Assembly: GCA_963457665.1 (NCBI GenBank)
Contig: OY735212.1
Coordinates: 54,366,838 to 54,430,837 of the forward strand
Direction: 5' to 3'
From: Thysanoteuthis rhombus
Lineage: Eukaryota > Mollusca > Cephalopoda > Oegopsida > Thysanoteuthidae
Length of the DNA stretch: 64,000 bases
Below, piece after piece: positions 22,773 to 44,024 of this stretch (the stretch's first letter is position 1; each line of letters starts with the position of its first letter). A program made the position numbers and the translations under genes. The notes under the pieces were generated by a model. That model did no database searches, was not told the origin of the DNA, and saw nothing but the letters and a program-made list of their open reading frames with translations.

Positions 22773-23256
22773 AAACGGCTCACCAAAACTGTTCCCATAG
22801 GTTTCTTCAGTTTTTAAATCAGTCTGGTTGACCAGTTATATATGTATGTATCCATGCAATGTATGTATATATGCATCATACCCGCAGTTCATACCAATAG
22901 AGCCAGAGTGCTAAAAATCTCAACGTTCATTCCTTATTATGCCTACAAAATGTGATAGTATATTTTTTTTGCGAATCCCTCCCTTAAGTAGGTAGGGGTC
23001 AATTCACGATATAAGTCTGTGCTATACCTATCTTTTAGTTTGTGTCCGGCAGCAATCACGATCGTTTTTTTTTTTGTTTTTCTTAAAGCCAGATGTTTTT
23101 AATGATCACTATTCAAAAGAAGACGAAAGAAGCAACTTACTTATTGATAGACTCTTTTTTTGAATTTTGATTGATCACCTCCGACACTGCTTGCTCCCAG
23201 GAGAAGTTGGTCATGTGAGGGTTCCTATCAAGTGACTAAGCAGTCCCTTCCCTTTT
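22773..23256 (+). repeat. Family A repeat, full length
   Basis: Complete forward copy, about 484 bp. Landmarks in order are CACCAAAACTGTTCCCATAG, GGTTTCTTCAGTTTTTAAATC, a GTATGTAT microsatellite, AATAGAGCCAGAGTGCTAAA, TTGTGTCCGGCAGCAATCAC, AATGATCACTATTCAAAAG, AAGCAACTTACTTATTGAT, TTGATTGATCACC, TTGGTCATGTGAGGGTTCC and AAGTGACTAAGCAG. It is a good reference copy. Confidence 0.88.
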
Positions 23257-23370
23257 CAATTTCAATTTCTCGTTGAAGATATTCTGGTATTTAGTAAAAA
23301 GATTCAGACACTACCGATTCCAAACTTCATGTCTCTGCATATCAGATGTTCAGAGGATGATGTAACTCAT

Positions 23371-23381
23371 AATATATATAT

Positions 23382-23456
<75 letters not shown>
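23371..23456. repeat. (TA)n microsatellite
   Basis: About 86 bp of TA with two small phase breaks. Confidence 0.97.
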
Positions 23457-23459
<3 letters not shown>

Positions 23460-24260
23460 TGTATGTATGTTTATAGTAAGAGGGAAAAAATTATCGAGCA
23501 GAAGGGCCGGTTGGGTTGGACATGTATACGCTGAATTTAATGGTTTATAACAATGATGGCTGACCTTTTCAACACGGTATGTCAAGATTTTAAATTTCTT
23601 AATGATCCTGTTATTGAAGTCTCACTTACTTGTGTACATACATTTAGAGTAAATGCATATCTAGTGAGCAGTTTATTTTTCTAATATATTTATATAACTG
23701 TTATTTTAATAAAATATTATGCGAAATTCCAAAATATACTCATAATCAAAGATAATAACATGAAATTAGGAAATTCTTTTTCAAAGTCATCACGTGTCAA
23801 CTAAAAACCTGCGGTTTATCACTGCCAACACGCCTCTTATAGGTGGTGTAGAAAGACACGTCTCACCCCACCGTACGTATTCGTTATTCAACACAGTGAA
23901 CCATTTTCCAACAACCAATGTCATTCCGCGCTAAAATACTTCTATTTATGTCAATTAAGCAGTTCCATATGGAAACAGACAAGTCTTCAAGTCAATGTGT
24001 TAAGCATAGTGTTACTTAAATGCCGCTTGACTTTCAGTAACTAAATTTCAATTTCAGTGTCGTAATATCGATTTTTCTAGTCTGTAATGATATTAATGCA
24101 GAAACTAATTGGGTTGGCGGCGAGTGGACTCTGAGTTTTCTTTGCTAGGTTTCTGTATTCAGACCTCGTATTATGGTGTTAGGAAAGATCAGTTTCTCTC
24201 AGCGCCATGAAGAGTACAGTACTTGAATGGGAATTCTATCCATTTGATCAGGGGCAAAGT
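23460..24260. other. No gene seen
   Basis: AT-rich sequence without coding frames or recognised repeats. Confidence 0.5.
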
Positions 24261-24264
24261 TCAA

Positions 24265-24490
24265 AATCATATTACTAAAACTATCAACGAAGGTTTCTTC
24301 AGTTTTATAATATGGTTTGTCTGGCTGGCTACGTATGTATCATACATACTGACTGCATCAATGGAGCTGGAGGGTTGAAAATTCAAACATTTACTCCTTA
24401 TTATGTATAGAAAAATTCGTTTTTTCTTAAATCCTCTACGATTGGTTTTTGCAATGTAAGTTTTTGCTAAATTGGTCATAGTGCTCGTGG
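24265..24490 (+). repeat. Family A repeat, 5' half
   Basis: Forward copy: AACTATCAACGAAGGTTTCTT, TTTGTCTGGCTGGCTACG, CATCAATGGAGCTGGAGGG, ATTCAAACATTTACTCC and TGCAATGTAAGTTTTTGC, ending at AAATTGGTCATAG. The 3' half is absent. Confidence 0.8.
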
Positions 24491-24499
24491 TGTCGTAGT

Positions 24500-25060
24500 A
24501 AAGTCGAGACAAAAGTCACATTTTTCCATCCGTCTGTTTTCCCCTATCTTACTTTACTTGAGCAATCCATTATAATCCACTTCCAGCTTGCCAGGCTCGT
24601 CAAAACTCTATCAAAGCTTTGTTAACTGTACATTTCGGGGACACGTTCCCCATTATGTCCAGCGCTAGTTTCTTACAACTCGGCACGTGGAGTTTGACGT
24701 TCCCGGATTGAATTCAGAGTTGTCCATCTCCTAGATTGGGTGACAACCTGCTGTATATTTTATCCATAGCTTGAAAGGGAAGGGATATTGATAAAGAGCT
24801 TCACTAAGGCCATTAGTACTGTAAACCGATAGGCCATCGACATCTCTTATCATATCGTTGTTAGTAGAAAATTGCCCTACTGGAAACGATATTTTCTTTG
24901 TTTATGGCAAGTTATCAATTGTTACTCTTGTATGATTTATTCTTTGGGAATGTTGGTTGGCTCAATGGTTACCAGCATGAAAAAACAGAATAGTCGAACC
25001 TAGATTGAATGTGTGCAGAGTACTGCTTATGCATCTTCATTTATTCTTCCGTTATATGTA
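24500..25060. other. Possible decayed SINE, otherwise empty
   Basis: TTGGTTGGCTCAATGGTTACC at about 24952 looks like a box A and AGTCGAACCTAG at about 24993 like a weak box B. No coding frame. Confidence 0.35.
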
Positions 25061-25064
25061 TACT

Positions 25065-25335
25065 TCTTTTGAACGACCGTAGCCAAAGGTGTGTGTGTCC
25101 ACGTGCTTGTGTGTCCAGCGCTCCTGGTCATACTGTTTTGTGTAGAGACTTGAAAATTATCATCGATAAAATGCTTTTTTTTTTAAATTTCGGAAACAAT
25201 CTCTCTGTAGAATCCAGCTGTTTCTAAACGTCTTTAAACTTTATTTTAGATGTTTTCAAGCGGAAAACGTTAATAATGTCACAAATAGAATTCATTCTGA
25301 CCATAATCATTTTTATACATTTTTTACATACGGTT
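25065..25335 (+). repeat. Dispersed repeat C, copy 2
   Basis: Matches 5690-6005 at GTAGCC, GTGTGTCC, CAGCGCTCCTGGTCATAC, GTTTTGTGTAGAG and the distal ATTCATTCTGACCATAATCA block. Internal parts are strongly diverged. The core CGCTCCTGGTCA also occurs reversed beside the SINE at 41.9 kb, so these may be parts of one family. Confidence 0.55.
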
Positions 25336-25571
25336 GTTTAATTCTTATTTTTTGTTGGCGGGGGGAGTCTTTCTTTCTAGAATTGGAATTTGAATAATTG
25401 TAGGAGAATCAAATTCTTTATAGAACACTAAAAGCTGTGAACACGATACATTAACAATTGGAAAAGAATAACTGATTTGCATGACATAATATCGTAAGAT
25501 GCGTTGGGACAGCATAAATTTTTTATATGAAAAATTCTCTTTCTACATCATCGTGGAAAGCTTTTAAGATA

Positions 25572-25574
25572 TAC

Positions 25575-25659
<85 letters not shown>
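25572..25659. repeat. (CATA)n(TA)n microsatellite
   Basis: A short ACAT tetranucleotide run followed by about 72 bp of TA. Confidence 0.97.
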
Positions 25660-25662
<3 letters not shown>

Positions 25663-26345
25663 TTTATTTTCATCAGCCATTATAAGTCTACTGCATGAGA
25701 GAGGCATTTCTCATCTACTTCCACGACGAATGCTACTGCACCATATCTCACCGGCTAACCTCTCTATCTCATCCTTACATCCTGTGTCTGGTCTTTCACT
25801 ACCGCGTTTACTGTCCTGTAGGAACCAATCAGTTAACCTCTGGCTCCATCTGTTGTAATTTCTTCCCTTCTTTCCTTCTTTCCTTCCCTTTTACCCGGAA
25901 GAAGCTTAAATTTTGTGCATTTCCATCAATATAACCATTATATTCCGCGCCAACGTTCCATTAGAAATTTTTCTGAATCTCTTATGTGTTTTGCTTTTTA
26001 CCCTTTCTCCTGAGGGATCATAGCTGCTCATGGGACGAACAGCGACGAACTAGTTCAGAACAAGGAGAAGGGAGGCCGGGCTGGGTCTGGCGTATCCTGA
26101 CAGTGCCATCCGTCTCCATTAGGCACCGCCATCCCTGATCAAATCCACCCGGGAACGAAGATCTAACCTGAAGTGCCTAAAAGGCTTTGGGCCGAGAGGA
26201 TAGCGAATGAAAACGTTGGGTACACGCATGCAGAACCACATACATGTACACACACCAACACACAATTATACCTAAAAATATGCATACCCGAGCGTGCATT
26301 ATCAATCACACGCGCGTACATATGCATAAATATGTATACTCCTGG
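25660..26345. other. Unassigned, less AT-rich stretch
   Basis: GC content rises visibly at 26020-26220 compared with the neighbourhood. The 79-codon plus frame at 25695-25934 and the start of the frame at 26173 have no recognisable domain. Nothing supports a gene, though this is one of the few places where composition would allow an exon. Confidence 0.3.
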
Positions 26346-26349
26346 GTTC

Positions 26350-26650
26350 CCAAGTTCTCATTTTATTTTATCAAATTTGATTTGCAATAACGTTTTTATC
26401 CTAACAATTATGGACCAAATATTCGATAGTGTTATACAACAATGGATGCAGTGTCTTTGTACAGGGCACCTACTAGTATTAGATGTTTTTCTCTTATTGC
26501 CTGGTAGTTGTTTGCAGTGTGCAGCTTCAATGTTGTTCCATTCATTTCTGAGTGCTTCCCATAGCTTACCAGTGTTCCTTATTTTTCTACCATCCAACCT
26601 TAATATGCAATCATTTGTTCGAAACGGTCTCAAATTCTTTTATAGGGAGT
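26350..26650 (-). pseudogene. Possible Tc1-like transposase C-terminal scrap
   Basis: The minus frame from 26633 reads KIRNTGKLWEALRNEWNNI, which fits the Tc1 segment following the catalytic Glu (typically LWEAL..EWN.I). After that the frame drifts (CKQLPGNKRK) and no GGxTKY-type end is visible. No terminal inverted repeats were found. It could also be a coincidental frame. Confidence 0.4.
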
Positions 26651-26819
26651 CACATACTTAGCTCTTTTTTTTTGCCCCGAAGTGTATATTCACAACTTTG
26701 AGAACCTTCTGGATAGTTGAGGTTAATTTGCTGGATGCTTCATAGAGATTACTTCGTGCTGTTGGGAGAGATGAATTCATGCATTTCGCAAAGGAATGCG
26801 TGAAGTGAATAGAAAGTGC

Positions 26820-26888
26820 CTCATCCAGAATTCGAACTTGGCTCGTCGATTGCATTTTCTATGCCGTTAATCGCTGGGCCAACTCTGC
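26820..26888 (-). mobile_element. tRNA-like SINE head
   Basis: On the minus strand TGGCCCAGCGATTAACGG (26880-26863) matches box A and AAGTTCGAATTCTGG (26840-26826) matches box B. The spacing of about 22 bases between boxes is tRNA-like. The flanks do not fold into a convincing acceptor stem, so a SINE promoter is more likely than a tRNA gene. Confidence 0.55.
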
Positions 26889-26951
26889 ACTATCAAGCAA
26901 ACACTTACACTTTATACAAATGCAGGCACATGCAAAAATAGATCTGTTCAG

Positions 26952-27690
26952 ACAGTCAATGAAACCGTGTCGTGGCCAACCAATGTCTTTTGACTGTTGG
27001 GGGTGATCAACTACAAAATTAGAAAGAGGGATCAGCAATGAATAAGTTACCTTATTATCATGCATTTTGAAAAAACTAAATAGGCTTTTAGTAAGAGGGT
27101 TCAATATACAATGTAAGTTTATGCTAAATTCAGTTAGCCCCCGACGGCATTCACGCTCTTTTTTTTATTCGAATATATTTTAGTGATTCTTATGAGATTC
27201 GCTAGTCTGGCATTCTTGGACTGGTCATATTGTCAGAATGCACGATGTGTCGGACATCACGACGTGCCAGACATCACGACTTGCAACGTCGATCCCAAAA
27301 GAACACATGGAAAATCTTGGACGACAGAAAATAAGGTGGCGTGAAGAACTAGAAAAATACAGTTAATACTAGCTCCATAATGCCCCTGATAGAGAGGTCT
27401 CTAATCTTCGGGAGAGTGTGTGTCCGATGATGGGAACTAAAAAGCAGATAATGACCATTACAAATTGAAAAACAAGCATGAATGCTACCGGACACAAAGG
27501 GATAAATTTAGCTTAAAATTACATCGTGAATTGTACACTAACCTACTATTTAGGGTTTGGTCGAAGAAGTCACAGAAATTGTGATACAAACATAGCAAGC
27601 CAGCCAGCCAGCCAGCCAGAACATCTTGAAAACTGAAGAAACATGTGTTGACGATTTTAGTGATAATTTTGGTTGTCGTTTTCTAACAGG
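26952..27690. repeat. Family A repeat, rearranged and split by RTE
   Basis: 26952-27075 is the reverse 3' part (CCAATGTCTTTTGACTGTTG, GGGGTGATCAACTACAAAA, GAATAAGTTACC). 27085-27195 is forward middle sequence (GGTTCAATATACAATGTAAG, TTATGCTAAATTCAG). 27205-27440 is an RTE 3' piece. 27465-27690 is reverse again, ending with the (AGCC)n run at 27596-27620 and TGAAAACTGAAGAAACATG. Orientation therefore flips inside the copy. Confidence 0.65.
27205..27440 (+). pseudogene. RTE-type LINE, C-terminal piece
   Basis: Plus-strand frames read a GHIVRM-like block (GACTGGTCATATTGTCAGAATG), a PKRTHGKSWTTENK-like basic stretch and a block ending near CAACACCATGATAGAGAGG in relatives (here CATAATGCCCCTGATAGAGA). 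No tail array is left. It lies inside a family A copy. Confidence 0.6.
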
Positions 27691-27694
27691 TTAT

Positions 27695-28255
27695 TTCGAT
27701 GCGTATTCGTAACAGATTAGAAAAATGAACATTATCAAATGTACTATCAAATACGCAAATCTCATTTACGTACAAATGCCTGAACACACAAACATTCAAG
27801 TATTTCAAACGGACATAGAGCGATATCGCACTGGTACTACACTTTGATTGCTATTTCTAGAAGTACCTGTTCCTAATTATCTATCTACATCAGTTTTCAC
27901 ATGCATTTATCTCTCAATTCATCGATGTTTATGACAATTCATATCTATATTTCCGTCCATTCATATCTATCCATCCATCTGGGTTTTATCGTATATGCCA
28001 ACAGCATGAATATACATACAGTAGCACTAATACAAAAATGCATCAACTTATATATATATATATATATATGCACATCTGATACAATTTCAACCTATGCACA
28101 CTATTGGTTGCATAAACATTAATGCATATGCACACATTCACCCAGGAACATAGGTTTTACCCAAGAACATAAATTTCACCAAGCAACATAAATTTTAACC
28201 AAATCAGGCATTGAAAACACACACACACACACATGCATACACATGCACACACAAT
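27695..28255. other. No gene seen
   Basis: AT-rich sequence with TCTATC-rich words at 27880-27980 and short TA and CA runs. No coding frame. Confidence 0.5.
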
Positions 28256-28257
28256 AG

Positions 28258-28299
<42 letters not shown>

Positions 28300-28316
28300 T
28301 ACGTGTGTGTGTGTGT
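28217..28316. repeat. (CA)n(TA)n(TG)n microsatellite
   Basis: CA-rich left flank, TA core at 28256-28301, TG right flank: a self-complementary compound array. Confidence 0.95.
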
Positions 28317-28319
28317 AAT

Positions 28320-29100
28320 CTACATACGTATGCATATATACCGAGTACTCTGGAAAAGGGCCCCGAATTATACCTTGTAACGTACCCTTCATGCATACTA
28401 AATGAGTTAAGAAAGAGAAGAAACGATTGGACACAAAGCAGGTGGTCATTAGAAGGGATTCCATCAATCAGTAATACGCTTATAGACCGGACAGATGATC
28501 ATCCTTGGCAGACAGGCACGAATTGAGAAAATTGATCTCTACGTTCCGTTACTTGATGTCAAGAAAATCATGAGCGACCGTCCGCCATCTTGGAGTCTTG
28601 CCTTCTCATTTCACGCCATTTTTAATCTAACTTGTTAAGTAATTTTTTTGTGTGTCTTGGATTTTTTCTTGTTTCCTTTTTTTCTCTTGTGCATTGCGAA
28701 AAACGGTAAAAGTTGAGTTGCTTATCATCAAAATGGCATTCGGCGTCGGTGTAATGAAAAGAGAAGAGAGAGGATGAGAAAGAAAATTTGGGGGAAAAAG
28801 AACAAAGAATAAGAATAAAAAAGATTGGTGATATTGCGAGTGAAGTACAGCAGAGTACATGGACACACACATATATATATATATACATATGCAGCGAGAA
28901 AAAACAGAGGGAACAGACGATTAGAAAAAAAAATACTTATAATGCCTTTGCACGCACACACACACACACACATATATATATGTGTGTACTTAGGAACACA
29001 CATATACGCTTGTGTGCGTTTTGCAATCAGATAGGCAAAGAAAAAGATTATGCAAAAAAAATCATTTCATCATTAGATTACAAACTCATTGATGCACTCG
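28320..29100. other. Unassigned stretch
   Basis: Holds small CA/TA arrays (28862-28888, 28953-28986) and a mixed purine patch at 28755-28830. CCGCCATCTTGG at 28582 is an exact match to the YY1 core, a motif found in some promoters and LINE 5' ends. Frames here are microsatellite translations. Confidence 0.35.
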
Positions 29101-29103
29101 TAA

Positions 29104-29224
29104 GTTTATATATATGTATATATATACACATAAATGTATGTATAAAAGTATATCTAGATCTTTGTATATATTTACATGCATATATACACACGTTTGCACA
29201 TATATATATACACATATATATATG

Positions 29225-29262
<38 letters not shown>
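29104..29262. repeat. Interrupted (TA)n microsatellite
   Basis: TA runs with TACACA and TGTA interruptions over about 160 bp, purest at 29229-29262. Confidence 0.9.
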
Positions 29263-29264
29263 CA

Positions 29265-29964
29265 AATACAAACACAATTACATAGTAGAAAGTTATTAAC
29301 TCAAAATTATTTATGTTGAGATCATAAACCTGCTTGAAAGCTTATCGTGACTGTACTGTAAACAAATTTATCTATTTATATTTTAGTAGATGAAGTATTG
29401 TAAATCATTAACATTTTTCTCTTATATTCTACGATCCACTTTATATTTTTGCTGCTTTTTATCACCACTAAACCGAGACCAGATGAATCTTTTCAAGAAA
29501 GCATAAAAAGGAAAAAAGTATGCTGATAATCACTACACTGTAGTATTATTGAATTTATGCTTTCCATCAATCGTATGAATTTTTTACTAGCATCCACTGA
29601 GCTCTTTTTTGCACCTTTTTGAAACGTGTTGCAATAATTACAAATCTTCTTTGAAAGTTTAATTCTGGCTATAACAGCATGAAAATAGCACAGAATTAGT
29701 CCTGAGAAAGAAAATACCTTTGCGTACACAGCGAGATTTCTAAGCATATAAAGGTTTTGTTCACGTTTTTGAGTAAAAAAATCGATTTGGCCATAACTGA
29801 CAGATCTCCAATTTGGGAATGGTAGAATGTTTGTCTATCAAAAGGTTTATGGTAAAAGATTTATTGGTTTGGGGAACAGAAAAAGTTAGAAGGGTCAGAC
29901 AAATTATTCCCAGATTTAGCGTATCTGCGGCCCACTGAATCTAAACCCCGCTATTGGCAAGGGG

Positions 29965-29965
<1 letters not shown>
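29265..29965. other. No gene seen
   Basis: AT-rich sequence; the 84-codon minus frame at 29747-29493 has no recognisable domain. Confidence 0.45.

Positions 29966-29968
<3 letters not shown>

Positions 29969-30052
<84 letters not shown>
29969..30052. repeat. (TA)n(TG)n microsatellite
   Basis: About 45 bp TA followed by about 38 bp TG with one T interruption. Confidence 0.97.
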
Positions 30053-30053
<1 letters not shown>

Positions 30054-30249
30054 AAACATTTTTTTCATTAGAGAGCATATTTCCCCGGGCACTAGGGTTA
30101 ACCAGTAGTAATCGAACAGCCCATCACATAAATTAAAAAAAAAAAGACTTGCGCAGGATTCGTATCCATGTTCATCAGGAACCAGTCTTGACAGTGCTAA
30201 TGACACTACAGGCAGAAGAAAACACATCCAAATTGTTCATCTCTCTACT

Positions 30250-30330
30250 CTGTTGTCGTTCACTCATTTGGTAAAGCAGAGTTGTGGTAAGATCGCTCCC
30301 TTGTGGACGCAGATTCGAGTCCTGCACAAA
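30250..30330 (+). mobile_element. tRNA-like SINE head
   Basis: Box A CACTCATTTGGTAAAGCAG (30261-30279) and box B AGATTCGAGTCCTGC (30311-30325) are about 31 bases apart, as in a tRNA. The box B is close to the GGTTCGANTCC consensus. No matching acceptor stem was found, so it is read as a SINE or tRNA-derived relic. Confidence 0.6.
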
Positions 30331-30334
30331 GTTT

Positions 30335-30840
30335 ATTTCTTTATTCAATCATTTGGCAGAGTACAAACCAGTAATCTAATATCTAATGCGCTCTATGTTT
30401 AAACATCTAGTAAAAGCAGAGCTTCAAATATGGTGATATAATGGATTTGCTACACCTGATCTGCCCTTTTGTTTTTTTTTCTTTGTAATGATTTGATTTA
30501 TCCGGGTCCAAAATTAGGACGTATTGGGAGGTTGCCTATTTTGTAGGTGGGAAACTTCACCTTATTTCATTTGTATTCCTTTCTTTTTTCTTTTTCACTT
30601 GTTGATCTATCAGTTAGCGCATTTTTCTTTTTTATCAACTGTTTTTATGTTGGCGATCCATCAGTTTAGTGCAATGGTTTTAGTTAGGGAAATTCAGCAT
30701 ATAATGTTATCTATCTACTTGTTTCACTCTTACCTGGCCTCACTTGTTTACGGTCCCTTAATATTCTTTGTGTATTGGTTTCTTTATATCAACGATTATG
30801 ATTATTAGTTGATTAAATTGAGTTTATAGTGGCTGGGGGT
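30335..30840. other. Unassigned stretch with a 94-codon plus frame
   Basis: The plus frame at 30524-30808 is hydrophobic (Phe, Leu, Tyr). It reflects T-rich DNA and has no recognised family. Confidence 0.3.
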
Positions 30841-30869
30841 ATAATAATAAAAAAAATAAAAAAAAAAAA

Positions 30870-30912
<43 letters not shown>

Positions 30913-30940
30913 GAAAAAGAAGAAGAAGAAGAAGAAGATA
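30840..30940. repeat. (AAT)n(AAG)n microsatellite
   Basis: A-rich start, then ATA triplets, then GAA triplets. It borders the Penelope-like relic on that element's 3' side. Confidence 0.95.
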
Positions 30941-30994
30941 GCTATGGTGATTGATTTTTGTATACTTGTATGTGGGGTGTTAAATTATGTTTTT

Positions 30995-31530
30995 TGATAG
31001 AAATTTCGAGCGGTGCCAACACTTAACAGCTTCTTCATTTTTTCTATTTAGTAAGTCTGTCTTTTTAGTGAAGGTGACAATTTCTAATTTCTCATCTTTG
31101 CATAGGTGGTATGGAGTTTAAATATTCTTGCATGTATGTGTTGGTTTTAATATTTCCCATTTTTACTGTTGGTGTGAGATTGCTGTATTTTAGGCCCCAG
31201 TAATGTGTGGATAGTGGTGTATTGTTTTTGTATTTTTCTTTGAAAAAGATGATTTATGGTTGGCTAATGTTGATTTAAATGGTGTTTTTGATACCCCCAA
31301 CTGATATGTCGTTTCTAAGGGTTTCTCTATGGTCGATATTTCAACTTGGTACACAGTATTCGATTTGAAGCATTTAATTTGCAAAGGGCACCTATTACTA
31401 TTTGTATTATTGCAGTTTACTTATATTTTCTTCACTAGTATCATTCCTTATGACTTTATTGTTACGCTTTTTTATGATATTTTGGAAGTTGGCCGTACAG
31501 TTATAAGTAAGTTTCAGACTACCCTTGTTA
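30995..31530 (-). pseudogene. Penelope-like element, GIY-YIG endonuclease relic
   Basis: Minus-strand frames, with shifts, give in order LTYNCTANFQNIIKKRNNKV (the SYSCMPN..II..HN segment that precedes the endonuclease in these proteins), a cysteine pair CPLQIKC, then NTVYQVEIS, TTYQLGVSKTPFKSTLANHK (position of the GIY-YIG motif and following Arg/His region), SSFSKK.. and the terminal CKDEKLEIVTFTKKTDLLN. Penelope-like retroelements join a reverse transcriptase to such a GIY-YIG nuclease. The reverse transcriptase is not found here and several stops break the frames. A (TTC)n(TTA)n tract follows its 3' side. Confidence 0.65.
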
Positions 31531-31599
31531 ATGATTTTCGGCTACTTTTTGTTGTTGCTGTGCTTTACTCTATCAGTAAGCATTAACAAACTGGGTTTG

Positions 31600-33656: not shown

Positions 33657-33740
<84 letters not shown>

Positions 33741-33810: not shown

Positions 33811-33814
33811 ACAG

Positions 33815-34385
33815 AGAAACTGTAAGAGGGGGATATTTCATCAACTGAAAGGAAATTAATGTCTGCAGGGATCATATATTTGAATATCTAAAGGTGAACA
33901 CAGTATACTTTCTAACATTTCTCATCTTATCGAATAAGATTTCGTTTTTTGAAAATTTTTAGACGTTTTTGAAAACATCCAGTTAACTGAAGAACAATGA
34001 TTTAAAAAAATAATCATCTTGATGGATATATAATTACGTCATCAGCGCTCACAAGCATGGGGTTTGAATCAAAATTGTTTTTTTCATAGATGTAATCAAT
34101 ACATTGTATAGTTTCTCTTTTAGCGGTCTCCCTTATCTGCAGTCTCCATTTCAGCTGTCCGCCCTCAACCACGGTTTACTCTTCAGAGGTGTCCTCATCC
34201 TTCTCTGCAGTTTGCTTCTCTTTAGCCCCCCCCCTTATTCACATTTTCTTTTTCTATAGTATGTGGGTGCACCTTGAAAATTCTGTTCTCCTTAACTGTT
34301 CTTGCTTCAGGCCACAAAAGATGTTTTAAACACCAGATTCTTTAACAATGGGTATATGTTTACATGCCTGTCTATTCCGATATCA
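33815..34385. other. No gene seen
   Basis: AT-rich with a short C run at 34228. No coding frame. Confidence 0.5.
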
Positions 34386-34386
34386 G

Positions 34387-34436
34387 ACCCATCCATCCAT
34401 CTATCTATCTATATATCTATCTATCGATCTATCTAT
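34387..34436. repeat. (TCTA)n microsatellite
   Basis: Imperfect ATCT tetranucleotides abutting the 5' end of a family A copy. Confidence 0.95.
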
Positions 34437-34842
34437 TAGAAATTGTCAACCAAGACAGTTAAAATAGATTTCTTCAGTTTTCAAGTGATTCTGGCTGATT
34501 ATGTTTGTATGTTTGTACAAACCGCACCAAAGGAACCAGAAGGTTGACAATCTTAAAATTTACTCTGTCTTGAAAAAAATGGCTTTTTGTTTTTATTGTT
34601 TCAAAATCCCCCATCTCAAAATACGTTTCTTATTGGCGGTTCAGTTTGCAAAGTAAGTTTGTGTCCAATTATTTTATCGAGAATCAATACGTATTGTTAG
34701 TGATCACTGCCAAGCAAAAGGCATAGGAGTAGCGTATTCATTGATCATCCCCTTTTCCATTTTTTAAAAACTGATTACCCCCAACACGGAATGCTATTAA
34801 AAGACGTCGATTATGTGACTGTTTCTTTTAGTAACTAACCCG
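34436..34842 (+). repeat. Family A repeat, nearly complete
   Basis: Forward copy from TTAGAAATTGTCAACCAAGA to GACTGTTTCTTTTAGTAACT and AACCCGATG. Internal blocks TAGTGATCACTGCCAAGCAA and AACTGATTACCCCCAACACG are clear. It is flanked by (TCTA)n on both sides. Confidence 0.85.
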
Positions 34843-34902
34843 ATGTTTGTATGTATGTATGTATGTATGCATGTATCTATCTATCTATCTATCTATCTAT
34901 TC

Positions 34903-34945
<43 letters not shown>
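34843..34945. repeat. (GTAT)n(TCTA)n microsatellite
   Basis: GTAT tetranucleotides then about 80 bp of ATCT tetranucleotides. Confidence 0.97.
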
Positions 34946-34948
<3 letters not shown>

Positions 34949-34949
34949 T

Positions 34950-35572
34950 CAATAAAGTCCCTCTTCATCAATTTGTTCTCTTTTCGCCTAAAATACTCAC
35001 CTTGTCAGTGCCGAAGGGAACTTGAAGGTATGACTGGACAGTTGGGGAGTAGTGGCAAATTCTATAGAACAGGTAAATAGATTTTTAGATTAATAAGAAA
35101 TTCGATACATCTAGAAAAGCATAGACCGTTAGGATGAATAGAAAGATACGACTCAAAAGTCAATGACCAATCTATTTTATTTTGTTGATTAAGTAGCGAA
35201 CTTCACAACTTTTGAGTAACAATATGTTCGAACAATTTTGCCACTCAGCCTTTATTTTATGCATTTTAAATCAGGAAGAAAGGGATTATCAGTGGTCAGG
35301 AATATCTATAAGTGTATTTGACAGATAGGATAGGACTATTGTACTTATTTTGCACATTAGAATTTGGTGGATTTACTCTAAACTTGGTGTAATGCTACCC
35401 TGCAACCTATTTGAAATATCAAGGCATTGTAGTAATGAAATAAAATCAGAATCTTTCTCTCCAGATTTTCTTCAACAGATGTCTACAACCCAATCTCGAA
35501 CATCGGGTGATCTGAGATGATTTCCCTACATCAACCTACGGAAGGGAAGTAACCAGAACTCCATCCACCAGT
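34950..35572. other. No gene seen
   Basis: AT-rich with no frame above 80 codons. Confidence 0.5.
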
Positions 35573-35574
35573 AA

Positions 35575-35800
35575 ATGAAGATACAAAAGTCCAGATGGAT
35601 CGGGCACATCTTATGCAAGAAGACTGATAATGTCACAAGACAGTGGAATGGAATCCACAAGGGAAGAGAAGAGTTGGAAGAGCAAAGAAGACTTGGAGAA
35701 GATCAGTTGAGAGTGAGGCTAAGACGGTCAGGTTGACATCGGCTCTGCAGAAAATAGTTACCCCAAAATAAATCGTGATGAAGTTGCCGCTCAATTCTCC
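35575..35800 (+). pseudogene. LINE C-terminal piece, second type
   Basis: The plus frame reads KSRWIGHILCKKTDNVTRQW followed by NGIHKGREELEEQRRLGED, which fits the LINE C-terminal pattern RW.GH..R...N.TR.AL.W.P.G.R.RGRP..TW. The next block keeps a basic stretch, then frames break. It belongs to a different family from the other RTE pieces, whose motif is DNRW. Confidence 0.65.
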
Positions 35801-35883
35801 TCAACGAGTCTACAGGAAAAATAACCATAAGCAGACTGTGAATATTTTACTCTTTCAGGAATTGAATTTATCAGAGTTGATTT

Positions 35884-36452
35884 TGAGAGCTGCAAACAAA
35901 AATTGTCAACAACTGTTTCTTCAGTTTTCAAGTTGATCTAGCTGGTTGGCTATGTATGTATATGTATACAGACCACACCAGCTAGAAGGCTAAAAATTTG
36001 AATATTCACTTCTCCTGTCTAGAAAAATGTTTCGCGCTTTGTTTTTTGAAATCCACCCGTGGTTTTTCAGTGGGGTGTTCAATCAGCAATGCAAGTTTAT
36101 GCTAAATTGATCCTTATGTTTGCGTGAAGCAACCTTAATGCTGTTTTTATTTTTTAATTTCTGACTTTTCAGTGATCATGGCCCAACAGATGGTTGGAGA
36201 AGTGACTTATTTAATCGATCAATGGATAAGTTACTTCTGAACTCTAACTAAATACTCATTTAGGGGTGGAGGGCTTTCAAAAAAACAATTTTTTTCGATA
36301 TATGACAAGGACTAAATGCTTAAATTTACAGCCCTCTAGTTTCATTGATGCAGCTTGCACACATGATGCAGCCAGCCAGACCAACTTGAAAACTGAGGAA
36401 ATCTATATCGATAGTTTTTGTGACAGTTCTGCTCGACGGTTTCTGATTTAAA
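35884..36452. repeat. Family A repeat, fold-back copy
   Basis: 35884-36210 is forward (ATTGTCAACAACTGTTTCTTC, AAGTTGATCTAGCTGGTTGG, CAATGCAAGTTTATGC, CAGTGATCATGGCCCAACAG). From about 36215 the sequence is reversed (CAATGGATAAGTTACTTCTG on to GCCAGCCAGACCAACTTG, AAAACTGAGGAAATC and GACGGTTTCTGATT). Both outer ends are the same family terminus, as at 14.3 kb. Confidence 0.75.
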
Positions 36453-36502
36453 TCCCGAAAAAAATAATCAGGGTATCCAACATATGTTTGATTTGAATAA
36501 CG

Positions 36503-36550
36503 TATAACATTGTCAACAACTGTTTCTTCAGTTTTCAAGTTGATCTGGCT
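36503..36550 (+). repeat. Family A repeat, 5' tip only
   Basis: CATTGTCAACAACTGTTTCT and CAGTTTTCAAGTTGATCTGG, nearly identical to the 5' tip of the fold-back copy 600 bases upstream. This suggests a local duplication. Confidence 0.65.
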
Positions 36551-36554
36551 TTAT

Positions 36555-37405
36555 GGGTATTGAACTATTATTATTTCTTATTGTCTGTCCGACAAGCAAG
36601 CCAAGTGGGTTTGAGGTTCTACTCTCTCTTTCCTCTTTCTGCTTGTCAATGCATGTGAATCCCCGTGCAGCCTGGTGGCATCTTTGGTGCTTGGGCCTTG
36701 AAAATTTCACCACTAGGCACCATCGAAAAAAGATTTTTGGTTTTTTCAAAAAACTGCTTCTTTGGTTATCTGTGGTCATTTTTGGACCAAAAACGTCCGA
36801 ATCTTGCGCTGTTTTTTTTTCTTTTGATAGTCTTAGATGAAAGATCGATTTTTTCAAAGATAATTTAGGTAATTCTTCAGATAATCAGTTCTGAAGCACT
36901 TGTAGGATATTGTACGTAATTCATTCATGCAAGATACGGGTATTTGATTGAATTTGTAAAGTGCGCTTTACACGACGTAAAATAGGTAAATGTCCATCTA
37001 CATTATGAATATGCTTCAGTCTACAAGGGCGTGAAATATTACTTACCTCTACGTGCGACTATAGGCGTGTGAATGCATGTTTGATGGTTCAGGTCCCCGT
37101 TAGCGATTGGGCCGAAGGTTCAAAAGAAACTGACCAGTAGTGAGAACTATAATCTCCGCTCGGTCCTCTCATAAAGTGTTCTTCTAACCGACAACTTGGA
37201 ACTTTGATCGATCTTCATTCTGAACTCATTCCGCGTTGTGACTTGTTTTTTTTTCTTCTCCTCGGATGCCTTTGTTCTTGCTTCTGCAAAATACTTGGCG
37301 CCCGAGGCGATAATAGAACAGGAAGAGGAGAGGGATGGCCCAGTGTGCTTATCGGTAAGTGGATAATTACGCTGGAAATAGGAGAATGGCAGAACTTAGA
37401 AAGGA
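36555..37405. other. Unassigned stretch
   Basis: Opposed 95- and 109-codon frames at 36528-36857 have no known domain. Nothing else recognisable until the purine tract begins. Confidence 0.35.
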
Positions 37406-37409
37406 ATGG

Positions 37410-38560
37410 ATGAATCGATTGAGGGAGGGAAGATTTCAAAGAAGAGTATTATGAAGAAGAATGAAAAAAAGAAAAAAGAACAATTGAGGATTTAAAGAAA
37501 GAAGTTGAAAGAAAGAAATTGGTTTGGCGAGGAACAGAAAGAAGAATATATTAATCGAGAATATGGGAATTAAGGAAAAACTAAAAGGAAGAGAAAATGA
37601 AGCAAATATTGTGTTGAAGATGTCAGAAAAAAATAGGAATAAAGAATGAAACATTGAAGAAAGAGGGATAAAAAGAAGAGGAGAATAGAGAAAGGGGAGG
37701 AAGAACCGAAAGAAGAAGAAAAAGAAAGAAAAATAGAAAGATGTGAAAAAACAGAGGGAAAGAAGATAAGAGAAGAAGGAACACAATGAAGAAAAGTGAA
37801 AAAATATTTCAAGAAAGCAAAAAAGTGACGCAAAGAATGGAGAATGAAGGGAAGAAATATAAAGAAAGACAAAAAGAAAGAAAAATAACGAAGAAACAGG
37901 AAGGGGAAGATAAAGAATGAAACTGAAAAAAAGAAAGGAAAAAGACTGATATGAAGGGAGAACAGAGGTGAACGGAAGGAAAAAAACAGAAATGCAATGT
38001 AAAAGAAAGAAAAAAAAAGAGAAAGAAGAAAACTGAGAGGTAGAAATAAAAAAGATATAAAGGAAAGGAAAAAAAAGTGGGAAGGAGAAAAGACAAAAGG
38101 GGGAGAAAAAGTAGAAAAAAGGACGGAGAGAAAGGATGATAAAAAAGACGTAAATAAAGAAAGGCGGAGAAGAGGAAAAAGGGAAAGAAAGAAAGGAGAA
38201 AGAGAGAGAGAGAGACCAGTAAAGAAGAAAGCTGAGAAGAAAATGAGAGAAGAATATAGTGAATAGATTGATTAATAGATCACTGAAGGGGAGGAGGAAA
38301 AGGGAAGAGAATGAACAGGCATGAAAATTAGAAAGAAGATTGAAAGAGAAAGAGAATGAAAAATCAAAGAGTAAGCAAAGAGCAAAATTTATATTGAGAA
38401 GAACGAGAAAAATAAAATGATTAAAAAAGGTGCAGAGAGAAACTGAAGAAAAAATGAAAGAAAAATGAAGATAAAAGACGAAAATAGAGAAGGATAAAAA
38501 AGTGAATAGAGGAAGGAGTGAGGATTAGAAATTATTCAACGAAGAAAAAATATCGGAAAG
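37410..38560 (+). repeat. 1.1-kb polypurine tract
   Basis: About 1.15 kb dominated by GAAAGAA, AAGGAGA and AGAAAGA words on the plus strand, less pure than the tract at 18.7 kb. The Phe/Leu/Ser-rich minus frames are composition artefacts. Confidence 0.9.
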
Positions 38561-38727
38561 GTTCGATGAAAAACATTCTGCCTGTATTGAATCGATCTTT
38601 TTCCTTTTCCTAAACGTTTTGCAATTAAGAAAGCATTTTGCTGATCGGGACGAATGAAATATTTAGAGATGCTGTTGTAAATCTCAAACTAACGATTCGG
38701 TAGGAAAAACTATGATGAGATTAAACA

Positions 38728-38985
38728 AACTGAGCGGTAGTAACCGCTTATAGTTAAGCTCAGTAGTTAACGTGTCGCCTACCCAGAATAGCCTTCACCC
38801 ACCATCGATCTGAATAAATGAAGAACTCAAGGTGTTAAATTCAGTGAATAGGGATACCTTGGTAGATCTCAGCCAGATGCAATTTTATAAGCTAAGCAGC
38901 AGTAACTGCTTGTAGTCAAGCTAAGTACTGTTAACTATTATTTAGGGGTGTCGCCCACTCAGAACAACGTCCTCCACACCAGCGA
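38728..38985 (+). repeat. Two-unit duplication with hairpin
   Basis: 38728-38803 and 38889-38980 share AGCGGTAGTAACCGCTTATA / AGCAGCAGTAACTGCTTGTA, then AAGCT.AGTA, GTTAAC, TGTCGCC, AC.CAGAA and CACC. The first unit carries an AGCGGT..ACCGCT stem. In the second, one stem pair changes from G-C to A-T, keeping pairing, but another is lost. AAGCTCAGTAGTTAACGTG also resembles a box A. Confidence 0.6.
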
Positions 38986-39356
38986 CTCCGGTGTCAGACA
39001 GCTAAGCGAATAGGTCGCAATAGCATGAGTAAACACAACCAACGGTTGAACTAAGATTCAGTTATGTTTTTAAAGAAAGAAAAGGAAAGATCCCAGCTGG
39101 AAATTATCTCCTGAAAAGAAAGGAAAAAAGAAGTAGAAAACCTGAGTCGGGAAATTGAAGTGATGTGGGTTGAGCCTGACTCTTACTCTACTGACTCAAA
39201 AGTACAGGATGAGAGAAAAATGAGCTCAACTGAAAAAGATTAGAATTCATAGAAACATAGAAAATGATTGATAATTTTGAATTGACCCAACCTGAATCCT
39301 GACCAATGAAAGAATTGAGTATTTGAATTCCCTTGGAGATAATAAATTCACGTTTC

Positions 39357-39375
39357 AAAAAAAAAAAAAAAAAAA
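39357..39375 (+). repeat. Poly(A) run
   Basis: About 19 consecutive A. It could be the tail of a retroposed sequence, but no recognisable body precedes it. Confidence 0.9.
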
Positions 39376-39564
39376 GAACTGGTAAGCTCCGAGAAAATAG
39401 AAAAATAATAAAATATATTGCATTGTGAAAATAGGTCACATTTGAAGTATGGGATAATGATTAATGAAAGCCCAGAAATGTAATAAGTAAAAGGCCTGTT
39501 AAGAGTCCTCGAGAGTTTGGTGATTAAATGCCTGACTTGCTGCCATAAGATGACCATTTTTGGA

Positions 39565-39879
39565 TCACAAAACAGTTTTCACTGATTCCCCCAGCAGAAA
39601 TACTCTAGATTTAAAATCGTAGCCCAGCCTGTCTAGAATCGTCAGTGTATTCTGCTTGCAGAAAGAAACTAGATCGAAGTCACTGCCTGGACTGTCCTGA
39701 GTTGTCGCTGAATCTGCCGAGCAGAAAGATCCTGGATAGAAGTTACTGCATAGCACATCTGGTGTCGCCGCCGAATTTCGCCTACAGAAAGACATAAGAT
39801 CGAAATCACAGCCAAGACTGTCCAGAGTTGTTTTGCCCCGCAGAAAATTTGTAACTCTCAAGTTGCTAATCCATTGCAC
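39565..39879 (-). CDS. Hypothetical frame with four 21-residue repeats
   Basis: A 104-codon minus frame covers four tandem units of about 63 bp (39596-39841). In translation the units align as TTLDSLGCDFDLMSFCRRNS, ATPDVLCSNFYPGSFCSADS, TTQDSPGSDFDLVSFCKQNT and a diverged TILDRLGYDFKSRVF. The 21-residue period is kept in frame with no stops. Consensus is a Ser/Thr-rich joint, then D, G.DFDL.SFC. I do not recognise the repeat. The frame runs out beyond the array on both sides and no splice or promoter evidence was found. A minisatellite whose unit happens to be a multiple of three is the alternative. Confidence 0.35.
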   Translation of the reverse strand: MQWISNLRVTNFLRGKTTLDSLGCDFDLMSFCRRNSAATPDVLCSNFYPGSFCSADSATTQDSPGSDFDLVSFCKQNTLTILDRLGYDFKSRVFLLGESVKTVL

Positions 39880-39899
39880 CCAGAGACTAATTGTGTTAA

Positions 39900-40005
39900 C
39901 GCTAGTATCTTTCCAAAGTGATAATTTTTTTGCAACTGGATAGAATCATGCTTATCATATTGAGGAACCACAAGCAGCACAATATATTATCAAACTTACG
40001 GGGGC
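39900..40005. other. No gene seen
   Basis: Short AT-rich link between the tandem repeat and the LINE scraps. Confidence 0.4.
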
Positions 40006-40009
40006 CAAA

Positions 40010-40280
40010 GATACCATAGAAACCATAAGAAAACTGAATAGCAATGCGCTGGTCATGTTGCAAGATTATCAGACATAGGTTGGAAAACAAGACTTACGAC
40101 CTGAATCCCATGAGATCATATGCAAAACTGTGGCTGACAAAGAATGGATTAGTTCAGAAAGTACGGCAAATCGTTACGTAATATTTTTTTCTTTCGCCAG
40201 TCACTATTTAGCATAGGATCTCTGGGGATCCACGGTGTGTGTTATGATGTCCAGTGGTTATATGACATATTTGCAATATG
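40010..40280. pseudogene. Two inverted RTE LINE scraps
   Basis: 40020-40180 on the plus strand shows ATGCGCTGGTCATGTTGCAAG (the GHVA block) and GAATCCCATGAGATCATATGC (the P.DH block). 40205-40280 on the minus strand shows the complementary GATCTCTGGGGATCCACGG and TGATGTCCAGTGGTTAT blocks found in the other minus RTE tails. The two pieces are tail-adjacent in opposite orientation. Confidence 0.5.
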
Positions 40281-40284
40281 GCCT

Positions 40285-41935
40285 ATCTAGTCCCTGTGGA
40301 AATTTCCCGAGTCATCGAAAGCAATGATAAAACACAGAGCAAGGCCTGTATTTGTCGAAGTTATGCAACATTTGCCATGACATAAACATCATTAACACTC
40401 CCTGGTATAGAACCAATCACATTCCTCCACAGTCATTACGTAACATTTACCAGATTACAGTAGAGTTGAAAGTACTTACTTGTACTATATTCAATGAAAT
40501 AGAATATTGTATCTTAGTAACATAACACCAGTTATCTCTTTCTTCTCACATGTCAACCAGTATCATTTCCCGAGAATATCACAGAGAGGAGTAGAGAATT
40601 ATAACTGACTCATCATGACAGTCAATTTAACAATCATAACTTCAAGAGTCATGAAAAATTCCATCGAATAATGAATACAGCCAGGATTATTTCTATTCAC
40701 GACGTCACTGTCATTTTCCACTAGAAAACATCTAAAATAGAGTGGAACACATTAACAGTTGGTTCAGTATCTACTTTTACAATATTTCATTTATTTTATA
40801 TGATGAAATATTGCGAATCATTATTATTATCACGACTATTTATCTTCATAGTACTTGTTGTTACTTTTCATACCAAACTCACGCTGGGTACTTATCGGTA
40901 GAGAGTAAATGAATCAACAGCGTGGATCAATTCTAACCTAGAACTTATCTTTTTATTACAATCTTCTTTTGTTAATTTATTTACTCTGTGTTGGAGAGAA
41001 CTCAGCCTGAGTTAAGTTGCGATAGAAACCAACAACAATTCAGATGAAGGTGAATAGTAACAAAAAATAAACAAACAAATATTGATAATAAAATGAATTT
41101 CAATGTTTGTTACGTTTGAATATGTTTATATCCCTTTGGAAAATCCCTTTAAAAATCTGACATTACTTCCCAAATAAATTAGTACATTAGTACTTTGTCG
41201 AAAATTCGCCCTTGGCCAGTATTCATTGTCTTTAAACGTCTTTGGTAGAGTACTGCCTTCTCAAGATATGCATCAATATATGCATATGTGTTGGTAGATC
41301 CTGATAAAACGTGAACCGTTTCATCAAAAGCACGAAGTAATAAAACCTGGTATGATTTATTAAATTGGGGAAATCGGAGTTGAATGTGAGAGTCAAGACG
41401 AACGGTTTGGAATTGGAGTGTCGAAAGTAATAAAAAAACAAAACAAAACACAGAAAGATTTATGAAGATTGGAAAAGTGCGTATCGGTAGGAAGTGTTCA
41501 TAGCAAAAGAATTGAATACGAAAAGCAAAAAAATAAAAAAGTTAAAAGAGAGGCCCTTAATGTCCATTTACAAAAAGGAGGAAAGTAGAATAATAATGAT
41601 AAAAAAAAAGACGAGAGAATCCTAAGAAGAGAAATATTGGCATTGAAAGACCTATACCAAAATCCGTATCTCGCATAAATGAATCACCGGAGCCCATGCG
41701 TGAACCAAAACTTATCATCTCAAAAAATCATCAAAAATCGAAAAATATAAATAGATCTTCAACTAAAATCGTCTAAAGTTATCTAAAAAAAAATAGATAT
41801 TATGTAAAATTATCTGAAAAATACCTGCACAACAGTAGGTCTGAAATAAGCAAAGAAACCACTTAAATCACTTTTCTGAAAAAAGATGGTTTTCAGTACC
41901 TAGTGGTGTACTCATGCACCTCTTTGAGGTAACAT
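40285..41935. other. Mostly empty; a 90-codon minus frame
   Basis: The minus frame 41451-41179 has a hydrophobic, signal-peptide-like start followed by a mixed, protein-like sequence, but no known family. Elsewhere AT-rich unique sequence, with A-rich runs near 41590 and 41785. Confidence 0.3.
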
Positions 41936-41937
41936 TC

Positions 41938-42058
41938 CCAAAATGTGACCAGGAGCGCCTGGGACAGATACAGACAAACAGACCCTCAAAGAGAGAAGAA
42001 TCTGTAGCAAACTTAGCTGGTTGGTCGGTCATTTGTAGGGTTACTGTGATTTGAGACA
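41938..42058 (+). mobile_element. tRNA-like SINE, copy 2
   Basis: Aligns with 1845-1985: AAAATGTGACCAGGAGCGC, GTAGCAAACTTAGCTGGTTGG (box A), TCATTTGTAGGGTTACTG and GTGATTTGAGA (box B, weakened). The CA-rich spacer of copy 1 is a purine stretch here. Confidence 0.5.
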
Positions 42059-42129
42059 TACATACATATACGTGGGTGCATCAATAAATACATGGCCTAA
42101 TATAAAAAATGATTTTACCTATCTTTCAA

Positions 42130-42832
42130 CATATTATCTTAAATTCGGCCCACATATGAACTTCAGCAAGACGAAGATCTTGTGCAACAACTACGTCCGA
42201 GAAAAAAACAAACAAAGATCAAAATCGAGGACACAGAACAGGAGAGAGTGGATCACTACATCTACCAAGGACTATGAATCTCCATGATACCCTCAAAAAA
42301 AGAAAAAAATCAAGCGAAGAGTCACACTAGGATGGCAAGCCATCGGGAGAGCCAGCTCAATCTTCAAAAATAAGAAGATCCCATTAATTCTAAAGAGAAG
42401 GGTGTATAACCCATGCATCCTCCCAATAGTCACTTATGGAGCTGAAACATGGATCCTAACCAAGGGACAGATCTGCAAATTGAGAACTATGCAACGTGCA
42501 CATGGGCCTCACATGATGAGACCACCAGACAGCACAGTACATCCGGAAAAAGACAAGGGTCAAGGACATCATAGAATCCATTAAAAAACACAAATGCCAG
42601 GGGGCTGACCATATTGGACGAATGGCGGACAACCGATGGACATTGCGACTCACGACATATATCCCCCGAGATCACATGCAGAACTGAGGCCGGCATAATA
42701 TTAGATGGAGAGGCGAACTAGACAAGTTCAGAAAGTACTGGCTCCACGACGCCCATGATATAGAAATATGGGAAATCCTGGAGAAGGTCGATATACAACG
42801 ACAGACGTTGAAAGACTGCTGCTGCTGATTAA
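42130..42832 (+). pseudogene. RTE-type LINE, C-terminal third
   Basis: The longest RTE C-terminus in the window. In order: HMNFSKTKILCNN (the block after the FADD box), YIYQGL-like, KRRVTLGWQAIGRASSIFKN, KIPLILKRRVYNPCILPIV, TYGAETWILTKGQICKLRT (the invariant TYGAETW motif), QRAHGPHMM, the GHIGRMADNRW block and WLHDAHDIEIWEILEKVD near the end. It closes with a CTG run at 42825-42832. Stops and frameshifts break it into at least four frames, so it is dead. It confirms the assignment of the shorter copies. Confidence 0.88.
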
Positions 42833-42834
42833 TC

Positions 42835-43540
42835 ATTATGCAGAAAACATTCGTCTAATTATAATATAAATAGTTCCTAAAAATACTTACAATCATGTAG
42901 ACATCGATCAAAGAAATACGCGATAGAAACACCTGCCAATTTTTGGACGTTAAAAGGTTGAGGGTGATGATGATGATAGTATAGTGACACAAGAGTGAAA
43001 CAGCATGTGGAGATCGAACTTGCAACCCAAGCCAATCGTCAATGAAACAATATAAGTCTGACAGATGGCTGCAAGAGTTGAGCACCTGCTGAGGCTCTAA
43101 CTTTCTCCAGGACTGAACATTCTAACGAGACTAGCTTGCTAACTATCACTCCATGTGCGAGCGACGATAAACATTCTTCAAATTTTGATTAGTTTCTTTT
43201 GAAACCAGAAAGAATGAAAAGTGTCTGGGAAGATTGTGTTACGCCAACCATTCAATATTTTTGCCCGTCTTTAAAATTAGCATTCTATATATCCGATTGT
43301 AACTCAAGTTCGAACATTGAGCAAGGGAAATAACTCTCTTAACCACTTAACAGACCTAGACACAGACGTGTTTCAAGAGAGAGAAAGCTTTCAGAAAAGT
43401 TAGTAAGACACGGACAGAGGTGAGTCAGTGATTAACTCTATCTCTAGACAGACTTATATAATCTATATTTCGCATTGTATTGATGGCGTCACGTATGAAA
43501 AAGAGAAAAACACGAACAAACAAGTTTCCTTTAGGCGAGC
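42835..43540. other. No gene seen
   Basis: AT-rich sequence. CAAGTTCGAACATTGAG at 43306 resembles a reverse box B, with a weak box A at 43340, but the pair is poor. Confidence 0.4.
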
Positions 43541-43545
43541 GTTTT

Positions 43546-44024
43546 TAAAAACCGTCAACTGAAACTGTCATCGAAGCTGTCAACACCGGTTTCTTCAGTT
43601 TTGAAGTTGGTCTGGCTGGCTGGTCAATAGTCTGGCTATTTACTTATTTATGTATGTAGCACACTTGTATTAATGGAGCAAGAAGGCTGAATATATTTGA
43701 ATCTTTACTGCTTATTATGTCTAGGAAAAGAGTTTTTTCGTTAAATTTCTACCCCAAATTTTAAGTAAGGGGTTCAACAGTGATGGCAGATCAACTAGAT
43801 TGCTTCCTTTTTTGTGTCCGGTAGCATCCTAGATTGTTTTTTTAATTTTTCATTCAGCCCTTACTAATGATCACTGCCCAACAAAAGGGAAGGGAAGGGA
43901 AGTAACTTGTTCATTAATCATCACCGTTTCCATTTTGAAAAATTGATCACCCCCAACGGGGCACGCCAAAGTACAGTGGTCACATGACGGTTTCTATTGA
44001 GTGACTAACCAGACCTGTTTCTTT
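43546..44024 (+). repeat. Family A repeat, full length
   Basis: Complete forward copy of about 479 bp from ACCGTCAACTGAAACTGTC to ACGGTTTCTATTGAGTGACT and AACCAGACCTGTTTC. It shows every block of the family, including TGTGTCCGGTAGCATCC and TTGATCACCCCCAACGGG. The 5' end reads AAACCGTCA and the reversed 3' end reads TAGAAACCGTCATGTGACC, a short subterminal inverted similarity. Confidence 0.9.

Follow-up and report, generated by a model that had tools for sequence, protein, structure and literature searches.

A short sequence, here called family A, recurs on both strands of a 64,000-nt stretch of DNA (the window), and the question raised by this locus is what kind of element left it there. The wider kind is secure: family A is an old, non-coding, interspersed, non-autonomous element. 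Within that kind, the reading preferred here, held at close to even confidence, is a decayed, non-coding, non-autonomous DNA element of ~460 bp that works like a HINE. HINEs, short for Helentron-associated interspersed elements, are non-autonomous Helentrons, and DINE-1 and Pearl belong with them.

A profile built only from the three full copies named in the first-pass annotation, and searched after 2,824 simple-repeat bases had been masked, finds 25 stretches in the window at E<=0.01, the named copies being three of these. Iteration yields a profile of 458 columns with 24 stretches on both strands, eight spanning nearly the whole model and 16 partial, and a footprint of 6,515 bp (10.2% of the window). 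Because this final profile was trained on the same stretches that it reports, the independent evidence is that of the three-copy model. With the latter, 21 of the 22 non-seed stretches score better than the best shuffle E-value (0.0022 across 20 dinucleotide shuffles, two of which gave one marginal match each), the lone exception being 27096-27172 (E 0.0063). The final model gives one match in one of 20 such shuffles, and a profile search of the reversed window gives 0 matches. A chance origin of the family A matches is ruled out by these shuffled and reversed-window controls.

Self-comparison with the three named copies finds every listed place at E<=1e-3, and all 17 places at which copies had been reported, in both orientations, hold at least one family A stretch. 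The list stands less well as a list of simple copies, since those at 14.3, 27.0, 36.2 and 63.5 kb are compounds. Likewise, 16.4 and 17.9 kb both carry family A but look like halves of one copy split by a LINE. The copy at 36.5 kb is secure over its first ~47 columns (model 33-79, E 9.5e-6 with the three-copy model), whereas the rest of 36506-36757 is not. The common ends and common order of internal blocks claimed for the full copies were recovered, including TAGAAACCGTCAT at 43984-43996 on the minus strand. Coordinates are collected in Table 1.

Table 1. Family A copies, fragments and parts of the best copy in the window.
Feature	Coordinates	Strand	Basis
Best full copy	43546..44018	+	nhmmer E 1.9e-104 (final model); ends by flank alignment
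Three 5' direct words AAACCGTCA, AAACTGTCA, AAGCTGTCA, 12-13 bp apart	43549..43582	+	consensus words; copy sequence
GGTTTCTTCAGTTTT, most conserved block; two half-words in reverse	43588..43602	+	place counted in copy sequence
Palindrome (GTCACGTGAC in the consensus; one pair mismatched here)	43979..43988	.	consensus palindrome search
Subterminal inverted repeat of the 5' end on the 3' side (TAGAAACCGTCA on minus strand)	43985..43996	-	consensus and copy
Conserved 3' terminus GACTAACCAGACCTGT	44003..44018	+	window search
Full copy	6492..6966	-	profile
Full copy; exact 11-bp CCTTTTCAATT in both flanks	22773..23249	+	profile, flank comparison
Copy, both ends	20800..21198	+	profile
Copy, 3' end and most of 5' end	4289..4667	-	profile
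Copy, both ends	11640..12035	+	profile
Copy, both ends, tetranucleotide repeats on either side	34437..34843	+	profile
Tandem compound: model 1-127, then second copy, model 9-458	63469..63981	+	profile
Inverted compound, 5' parts outermost: + 14-130, then - 374-1	14261..14695	.	profile
Inverted compound, 5' parts outermost: + 23-358, then - 219-1	35896..36443	.	profile
Further 5' fragment, first ~47 columns secure	36506..36757	+	profile
Compound, inverted inner part and foreign DNA inside	26940..27683	-	four profile stretches
5' part of insertion-split copy, model 1-329	16385..16711	+	profile
3' part of same split copy, model 320-458	17926..18063	+	profile
Inner fragment	2826..3022	-	profile
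5' fragment	5264..5564	+	profile
5' fragment	24270..24489	+	profile
3' fragment	49529..49700	+	profile

Family A is an old burst of an interspersed element. Leave-one-out identity to the consensus averages 0.762 by column (~76%), and pairwise identity averages 0.637 over 171 copy pairs with at least 100 common columns. As this lies near the value expected by hand calculation for a star phylogeny (~0.60), most copies stem from one source or a few near-identical sources. Converted by hand, the 0.238 differences give ~0.29 as the Jukes-Cantor distance. At the octopus substitution rate of 0.0036 per million years given in an excerpt of PMC13282606, the burst would date to roughly 80 million years ago, a figure subject to the octopus rate perhaps not being that of the host and to the distortion of a few-copy consensus. 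Segmental duplication is rejected: compared over 50 bases, the flanks of the copies do not align, and the 120-base flanks of nine loci match elsewhere at E<1e-3 only through a tetranucleotide match of 36-38 bases and one 47-base stretch.

Some copies lie side by side. Neighbouring pairs abut within 25 bp in 4 of 23 cases, against 0.26 expected (P 0.0002), a count that treats parts of one rearranged copy separately; one pair is tandem (63.5 kb) and three are inverted (14.3, 27.0 and 36.2 kb). At 63.5 kb, the two members carry the same base in 8/8 columns where both depart from the consensus; at 27.0 kb, 7 of 8 joint departures are common to the inner parts. Against a background of 47% over all copy pairs, a single copy appears to have been duplicated in each of these two compounds. 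At 14.3 kb (3 of 4 joint departures common; identity 0.688) and 36.2 kb (5 of 9; 0.679), the arms resemble each other about as much as unrelated copies do, as if independent copies had come to lie together. For rolling-circle elements, tandem arrangements in which the inner 3' ends are truncated are known, according to the excerpted account of PMC7492417, and ordinary local duplication explains the 63.5 kb tandem equally well.

Family A has also been invaded. The split copy at 16.4/17.9 kb is interrupted at model ~325 by ~1.2 kb holding an RVT_1 match (17096-17362; E 5.8e-6; 26.6 bits, below the Pfam cut-off of 29.6) and a LINE-like repeat (17370-17894) with (ATG)n at its end. Similar 9-base words stand at the two breaks, CAACAAAAG on the 17.9 kb side and CAAAAAAAG on the other, and their likeness resembles what the duplicated target of an inserted LINE would give. 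Since the LINE interrupts a family A copy, family A was in place before that LINE moved. The foreign DNA inside the 27.0 kb compound (27270-27441) is similar to the LINE-like repeat as well.

The LINE-like sequences form a family of their own, 67-75% alike, at 8564-8963, 17370-17894, 27270-27441, 39937-40141, 42254-42815, 46407-46943 and 49954-50369, with a reverse-transcriptase match just before the fragment at 17.4 kb. A second repeat (12506-12878 and 57385-57760) is 72% alike on opposite strands, each copy near ATT-type trinucleotide arrays, and a weak zf-RVT match at 12877-13236 (E 0.00053, below cut-off) adjoins the first of them. The direct repeat at 49362-49522 and 50497-50660 is 80% alike, with a long (TA)n array before each copy. 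Two stretches of ~1 kb each, 18636-19674 and 37436-38524, are purine-rich on the plus strand, and several minus frames there are open by composition alone.

The anatomy of family A, as read from a consensus of 24 decayed stretches in 64 kb on which the conservation, palindrome and iteron figures depend, is concentrated at its ends. Similarity is limited by TTAGAAAC on the 5' side, fuzzy by a few bases, and by CAGACCTGT on the 3' side; flanks beyond do not align. The 5' end carries TAGAAAC[C/T]GTCA, and AAACTGTCA recurs at consensus positions 5, 18 and 30 (12-13 bp apart; TTA prefixed), with an inverse AAACCGTCA at 428. Taken simply as a pattern, the iterated 5' words are unusual without being extreme, since 4 of 301 shuffles contain some 9-mer at least three times within 45 bases. 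The third word is immediately followed by GGTTTCTTCAGTTTT, in which two half-words can be read in the reverse direction. No other part of family A is as well conserved: the mean identity over 12 columns reaches 0.94, above the 95% limit of 0.91 from column permutation. GGTTTCT, the inverse of AGAAACC, occupies model 41-47, and a tetranucleotide stretch of TATG type follows at model ~84-100.

Toward the other end, 22 bp before the 3' limit, the 5' end recurs in inverse form as TGACGGTTTCTA. The consensus thus contains the short subterminal inverted similarity between the ends that the earlier reading had noted. As computed, this similarity covers 12 bp provided that a single C/T difference is allowed, and 9 of 3,000 randomly paired window stretches equal it at <=1 mismatch. 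Without mismatches, the majority consensus has a terminal inverted match of just 7 bp, a length found or exceeded in 249 of 5,000 shuffles. In 12 copies read by eye, the variable base of the first word is C in 4, T in 7 and G in 1; with C in a third of them, it may be ancestral and lost through CpG decay, and the inverted repeat would then be perfect. At the nine two-ended loci, 11 of 12 positions match in only one, and 7-9 in the others. Three perfect 10-bp palindromes with at least two G/C lie in the 3' half of the consensus (309, 396 and 419, without TTA), and at least three occur in 15 of 3,000 dinucleotide shuffles. The palindrome GTCACGTGAC ends ~30 bp from the 3' end, overlapping and preceding the 3' subTIR. 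No hairpin was found in the stretch from the 3' subterminal repeat to the terminus, hand-written ends of 33 and 43 bases folding no better than shuffles. The 3' terminus GACTAACCAGACCTGT has 7 window matches at <=3 mismatches, against 0.28 expected by shuffle.

On the strand of the element the flanks are rich in T, above all downstream of the 3' end, where T makes up 51.5% of 12 bases in 11 copies (background 32.1%; 0 of 5,000 random sets as high), with TT immediately 3' of the element in only 6 of the 11. Before the 5' end T reaches 41.7% of 12 bases in 12 copies (same background; P 0.031), a test on 12 of the 17 stretches reaching the 5' region that omits 4667, 35896, 24270, 14261 and 36506, where the end word is missing or displaced. 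Flank inspection for target-site duplications or an AT insertion signature, as had been suggested, gave a divided answer: an exact 11-bp repeat at one of nine loci, scores within the control range at the other eight, and T-rich sequence instead of A|T. The exact 11/11-bp repeat, CCTTTTCAATT, lies at the 22.8 kb copy, separated from the 5' end by 2 bases and from the 3' end by 1 (ends as set), and its score is reached by 1 of 2,000 random pairs. No empty site was found within the window.

This repeat lends itself to a different reading, possible but doubtful, in which family A is a MITE-like non-autonomous cut-and-paste transposon whose subterminal inverted repeats are very short and whose insertion duplicates ~9-12 bp of target (e.g. 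Mutator-like without long terminal repeats). The mean duplication score over the nine two-ended loci, two of them compound (63471-63981 and 27683-26938), is 4.1, which slightly exceeds the 3.3 of mispaired flanks and the 2.7 of random pairs, but eight of the nine score 1-5, inside the span (0-6) covered by 72 mispaired flank pairs. A genuine duplication is expected to have decayed in copies this old, so that absence at eight loci and presence at one settle nothing. The inverted compounds at 14.3 and 36.2 kb, with 5' ends outward on both sides, would suit such a transposon, and cut-and-paste systems can use inverted compounds with outward ends; against it, the inverted match is just 12 bp long and lies off the exact 3' end.

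An unlikely reading is a SINE-like retroposon of undefined promoter type, RNA-copied by a LINE of the same genome. Family A is short, non-coding and abundant, LINE fragments occupy the same window and the 11-bp repeat flanking one copy would be in keeping with retroposition, but the pattern of end loss runs the other way. Of the 24 stretches, eight have both ends, two are the halves of the split 16.4/17.9 kb copy, four belong to the 27.0 kb compound and one is an inner fragment; among the remaining nine, eight keep only the 5' end and one only the 3' end. The bias has P 0.039 (8/9), 0.07 (7/8) or 0.125 (6/7), compound members not being independent. Retroposition loses 5' ends, and the mostly lost 3' ends of family A are the reverse of that pattern. 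The 3' ends also carry no common A-rich or simple-repeat tail. A tRNA- or 5S-derived SINE is not supported, as no tRNA was found in the window and the best copy has no Rfam match at E<=1. Elsewhere in the window, 51586-51705 on the minus strand is a full-length 5S rRNA-like sequence (55.6 bits; gathering 38) with no T run directly after it, as likely a 5S pseudogene or 5S-derived SINE as a gene; BLAST of 51501-51800 against the window gave no second copy at E<=0.01.

Less likely still, family A may represent a distinct non-autonomous rolling-circle branch, whose 5' origin would consist of three direct iterons and an inverted half-iteron, whose 3' palindrome fused to a single inverted iteron would replace the terminal hairpin, and whose compounds would be replication by-products. 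The iteron arrangement of such an origin is likened to plasmid and virus replication origins. Searched with five end or core patterns, viral and prokaryote genome collections gave no relatives, as expected for animal DNA. Least likely is that family A is a fragment, such as a solo terminal or untranslated piece, of some larger coding element that has no intact copy in the window. In favour of this, the window is just 64 kb and larger relatives could have the same ends; against it, several copies stop at the same pair of limits, and the sequences flanking them on either side are unrelated.

If family A is instead HINE-like, as preferred here, an autonomous Helentron elsewhere in the genome would supply a Rep/helicase that binds the end words and nicks at the 5' end. 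One strand would be peeled off until the palindrome and subterminal repeat of the 3' side are reached, and would then be inserted into T-rich DNA, the donor copy staying in place. Within the window, a Pfam scan of 113 of the 154 translated frames (those omitted by eye being mostly low-complexity or overlapping) gave no Rep/helicase match at E<=0.01, and an autonomous partner is rejected among these 113. The matches at this threshold are RVT_1, zf-RVT and DUF3284, in one frame each, the first two below Pfam cut-offs and the last at E 0.0038.

Were family A a Helentron derivative, an old, abundant burst of such elements would be documented in a probable mollusc genome, and the iterated 5' words would offer a concrete guess at a putative Rep-binding site. 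Otherwise, family A is one more unclassified repeat family of an ordinary sort. In cephalopod repeat studies a large share labelled 'Unknown' is disregarded, as an excerpt of PMC8967140 indicates. A search of the literature, rather than Repbase/Dfam, returned no paper devoted to a cephalopod HINE/Helentron family among the matches listed.

Among known systems, canonical Helitrons begin with 5' TC, end with 3' CTRR and a hairpin, and insert between A and T. Family A resembles them in being non-coding and in having no clear target-site duplication at 8 of 9 loci, but ends in TTAGAAAC...CAGACCTGT instead of TC...CTRR and has T-rich flanks instead of an A|T site, and so does not match the canonical definition. 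The suggestion of a non-autonomous DNA transposon or Helitron derivative, made without commitment in the first-pass annotation, is partly supported.

HINE/DINE-1 elements, as portrayed in the excerpted text of PMC4067079, are like family A short and non-coding, with subterminal inverted repeats near both ends, palindromes, a short microsatellite and high copy number, and DINE-1 also has a 5' inverted copy. Their target is T-rich, to which the T-rich flanks of family A may correspond. Subterminal inverted repeats of HINE type (~11-15 bp) are present at both ends of the family A consensus and clear at 1 of 9 loci. In mite HINEs the 5' subTIR lies 2-4 nt from the 5' terminus, and the HINE target is T-rich with at least two Ts at each end (same excerpt of PMC4067079). 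Unlike the HINE/DINE-1 elements of that excerpt, family A carries the end word three times, in direct orientation, on its 5' side. Its palindromes precede the 3' subterminal repeat instead of following it, and the repeat lies 22 bp from the 3' end (43546 copy) against 38-60 bp in mite HINEs (PMC4067079, same text). One copy has a possible target-site duplication, whereas a HINE should make none.

The Pearl/Cg_HINE elements of bivalves, in the excerpted description of PMC7492417, share with family A a 5' subTIR, a complementary IR, a tetranucleotide microsatellite, a 3' subTIR and the lack of coding sequence. A 5' IR of DINE-1/Cg_HINE type, complementary to the 5' subTIR, is present in the family A consensus together with the microsatellite, and the GGTTTCTTCAGTTTT region occupies the place of the 5' IR in DINE-1 and Cg_HINE, as far as the excerpts of PMC4067079 and PMC7492417 go. 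Compared by description only, family A is without the central satellite-like tandem array of Pearl/Cg_HINE, and its spacer from first word to IR is longer than their 1-12 bp (PMC7492417, same excerpt). The subTIR, 5' IR, microsatellite and T-rich flanks match, while the place of the palindromes and the 3' distance fail, and family A is therefore called HINE-like and not filed as a HINE. Its anatomy, read from sequence, fits the Helentron branch (HINE/DINE-1/Pearl) better than canonical Helitrons.
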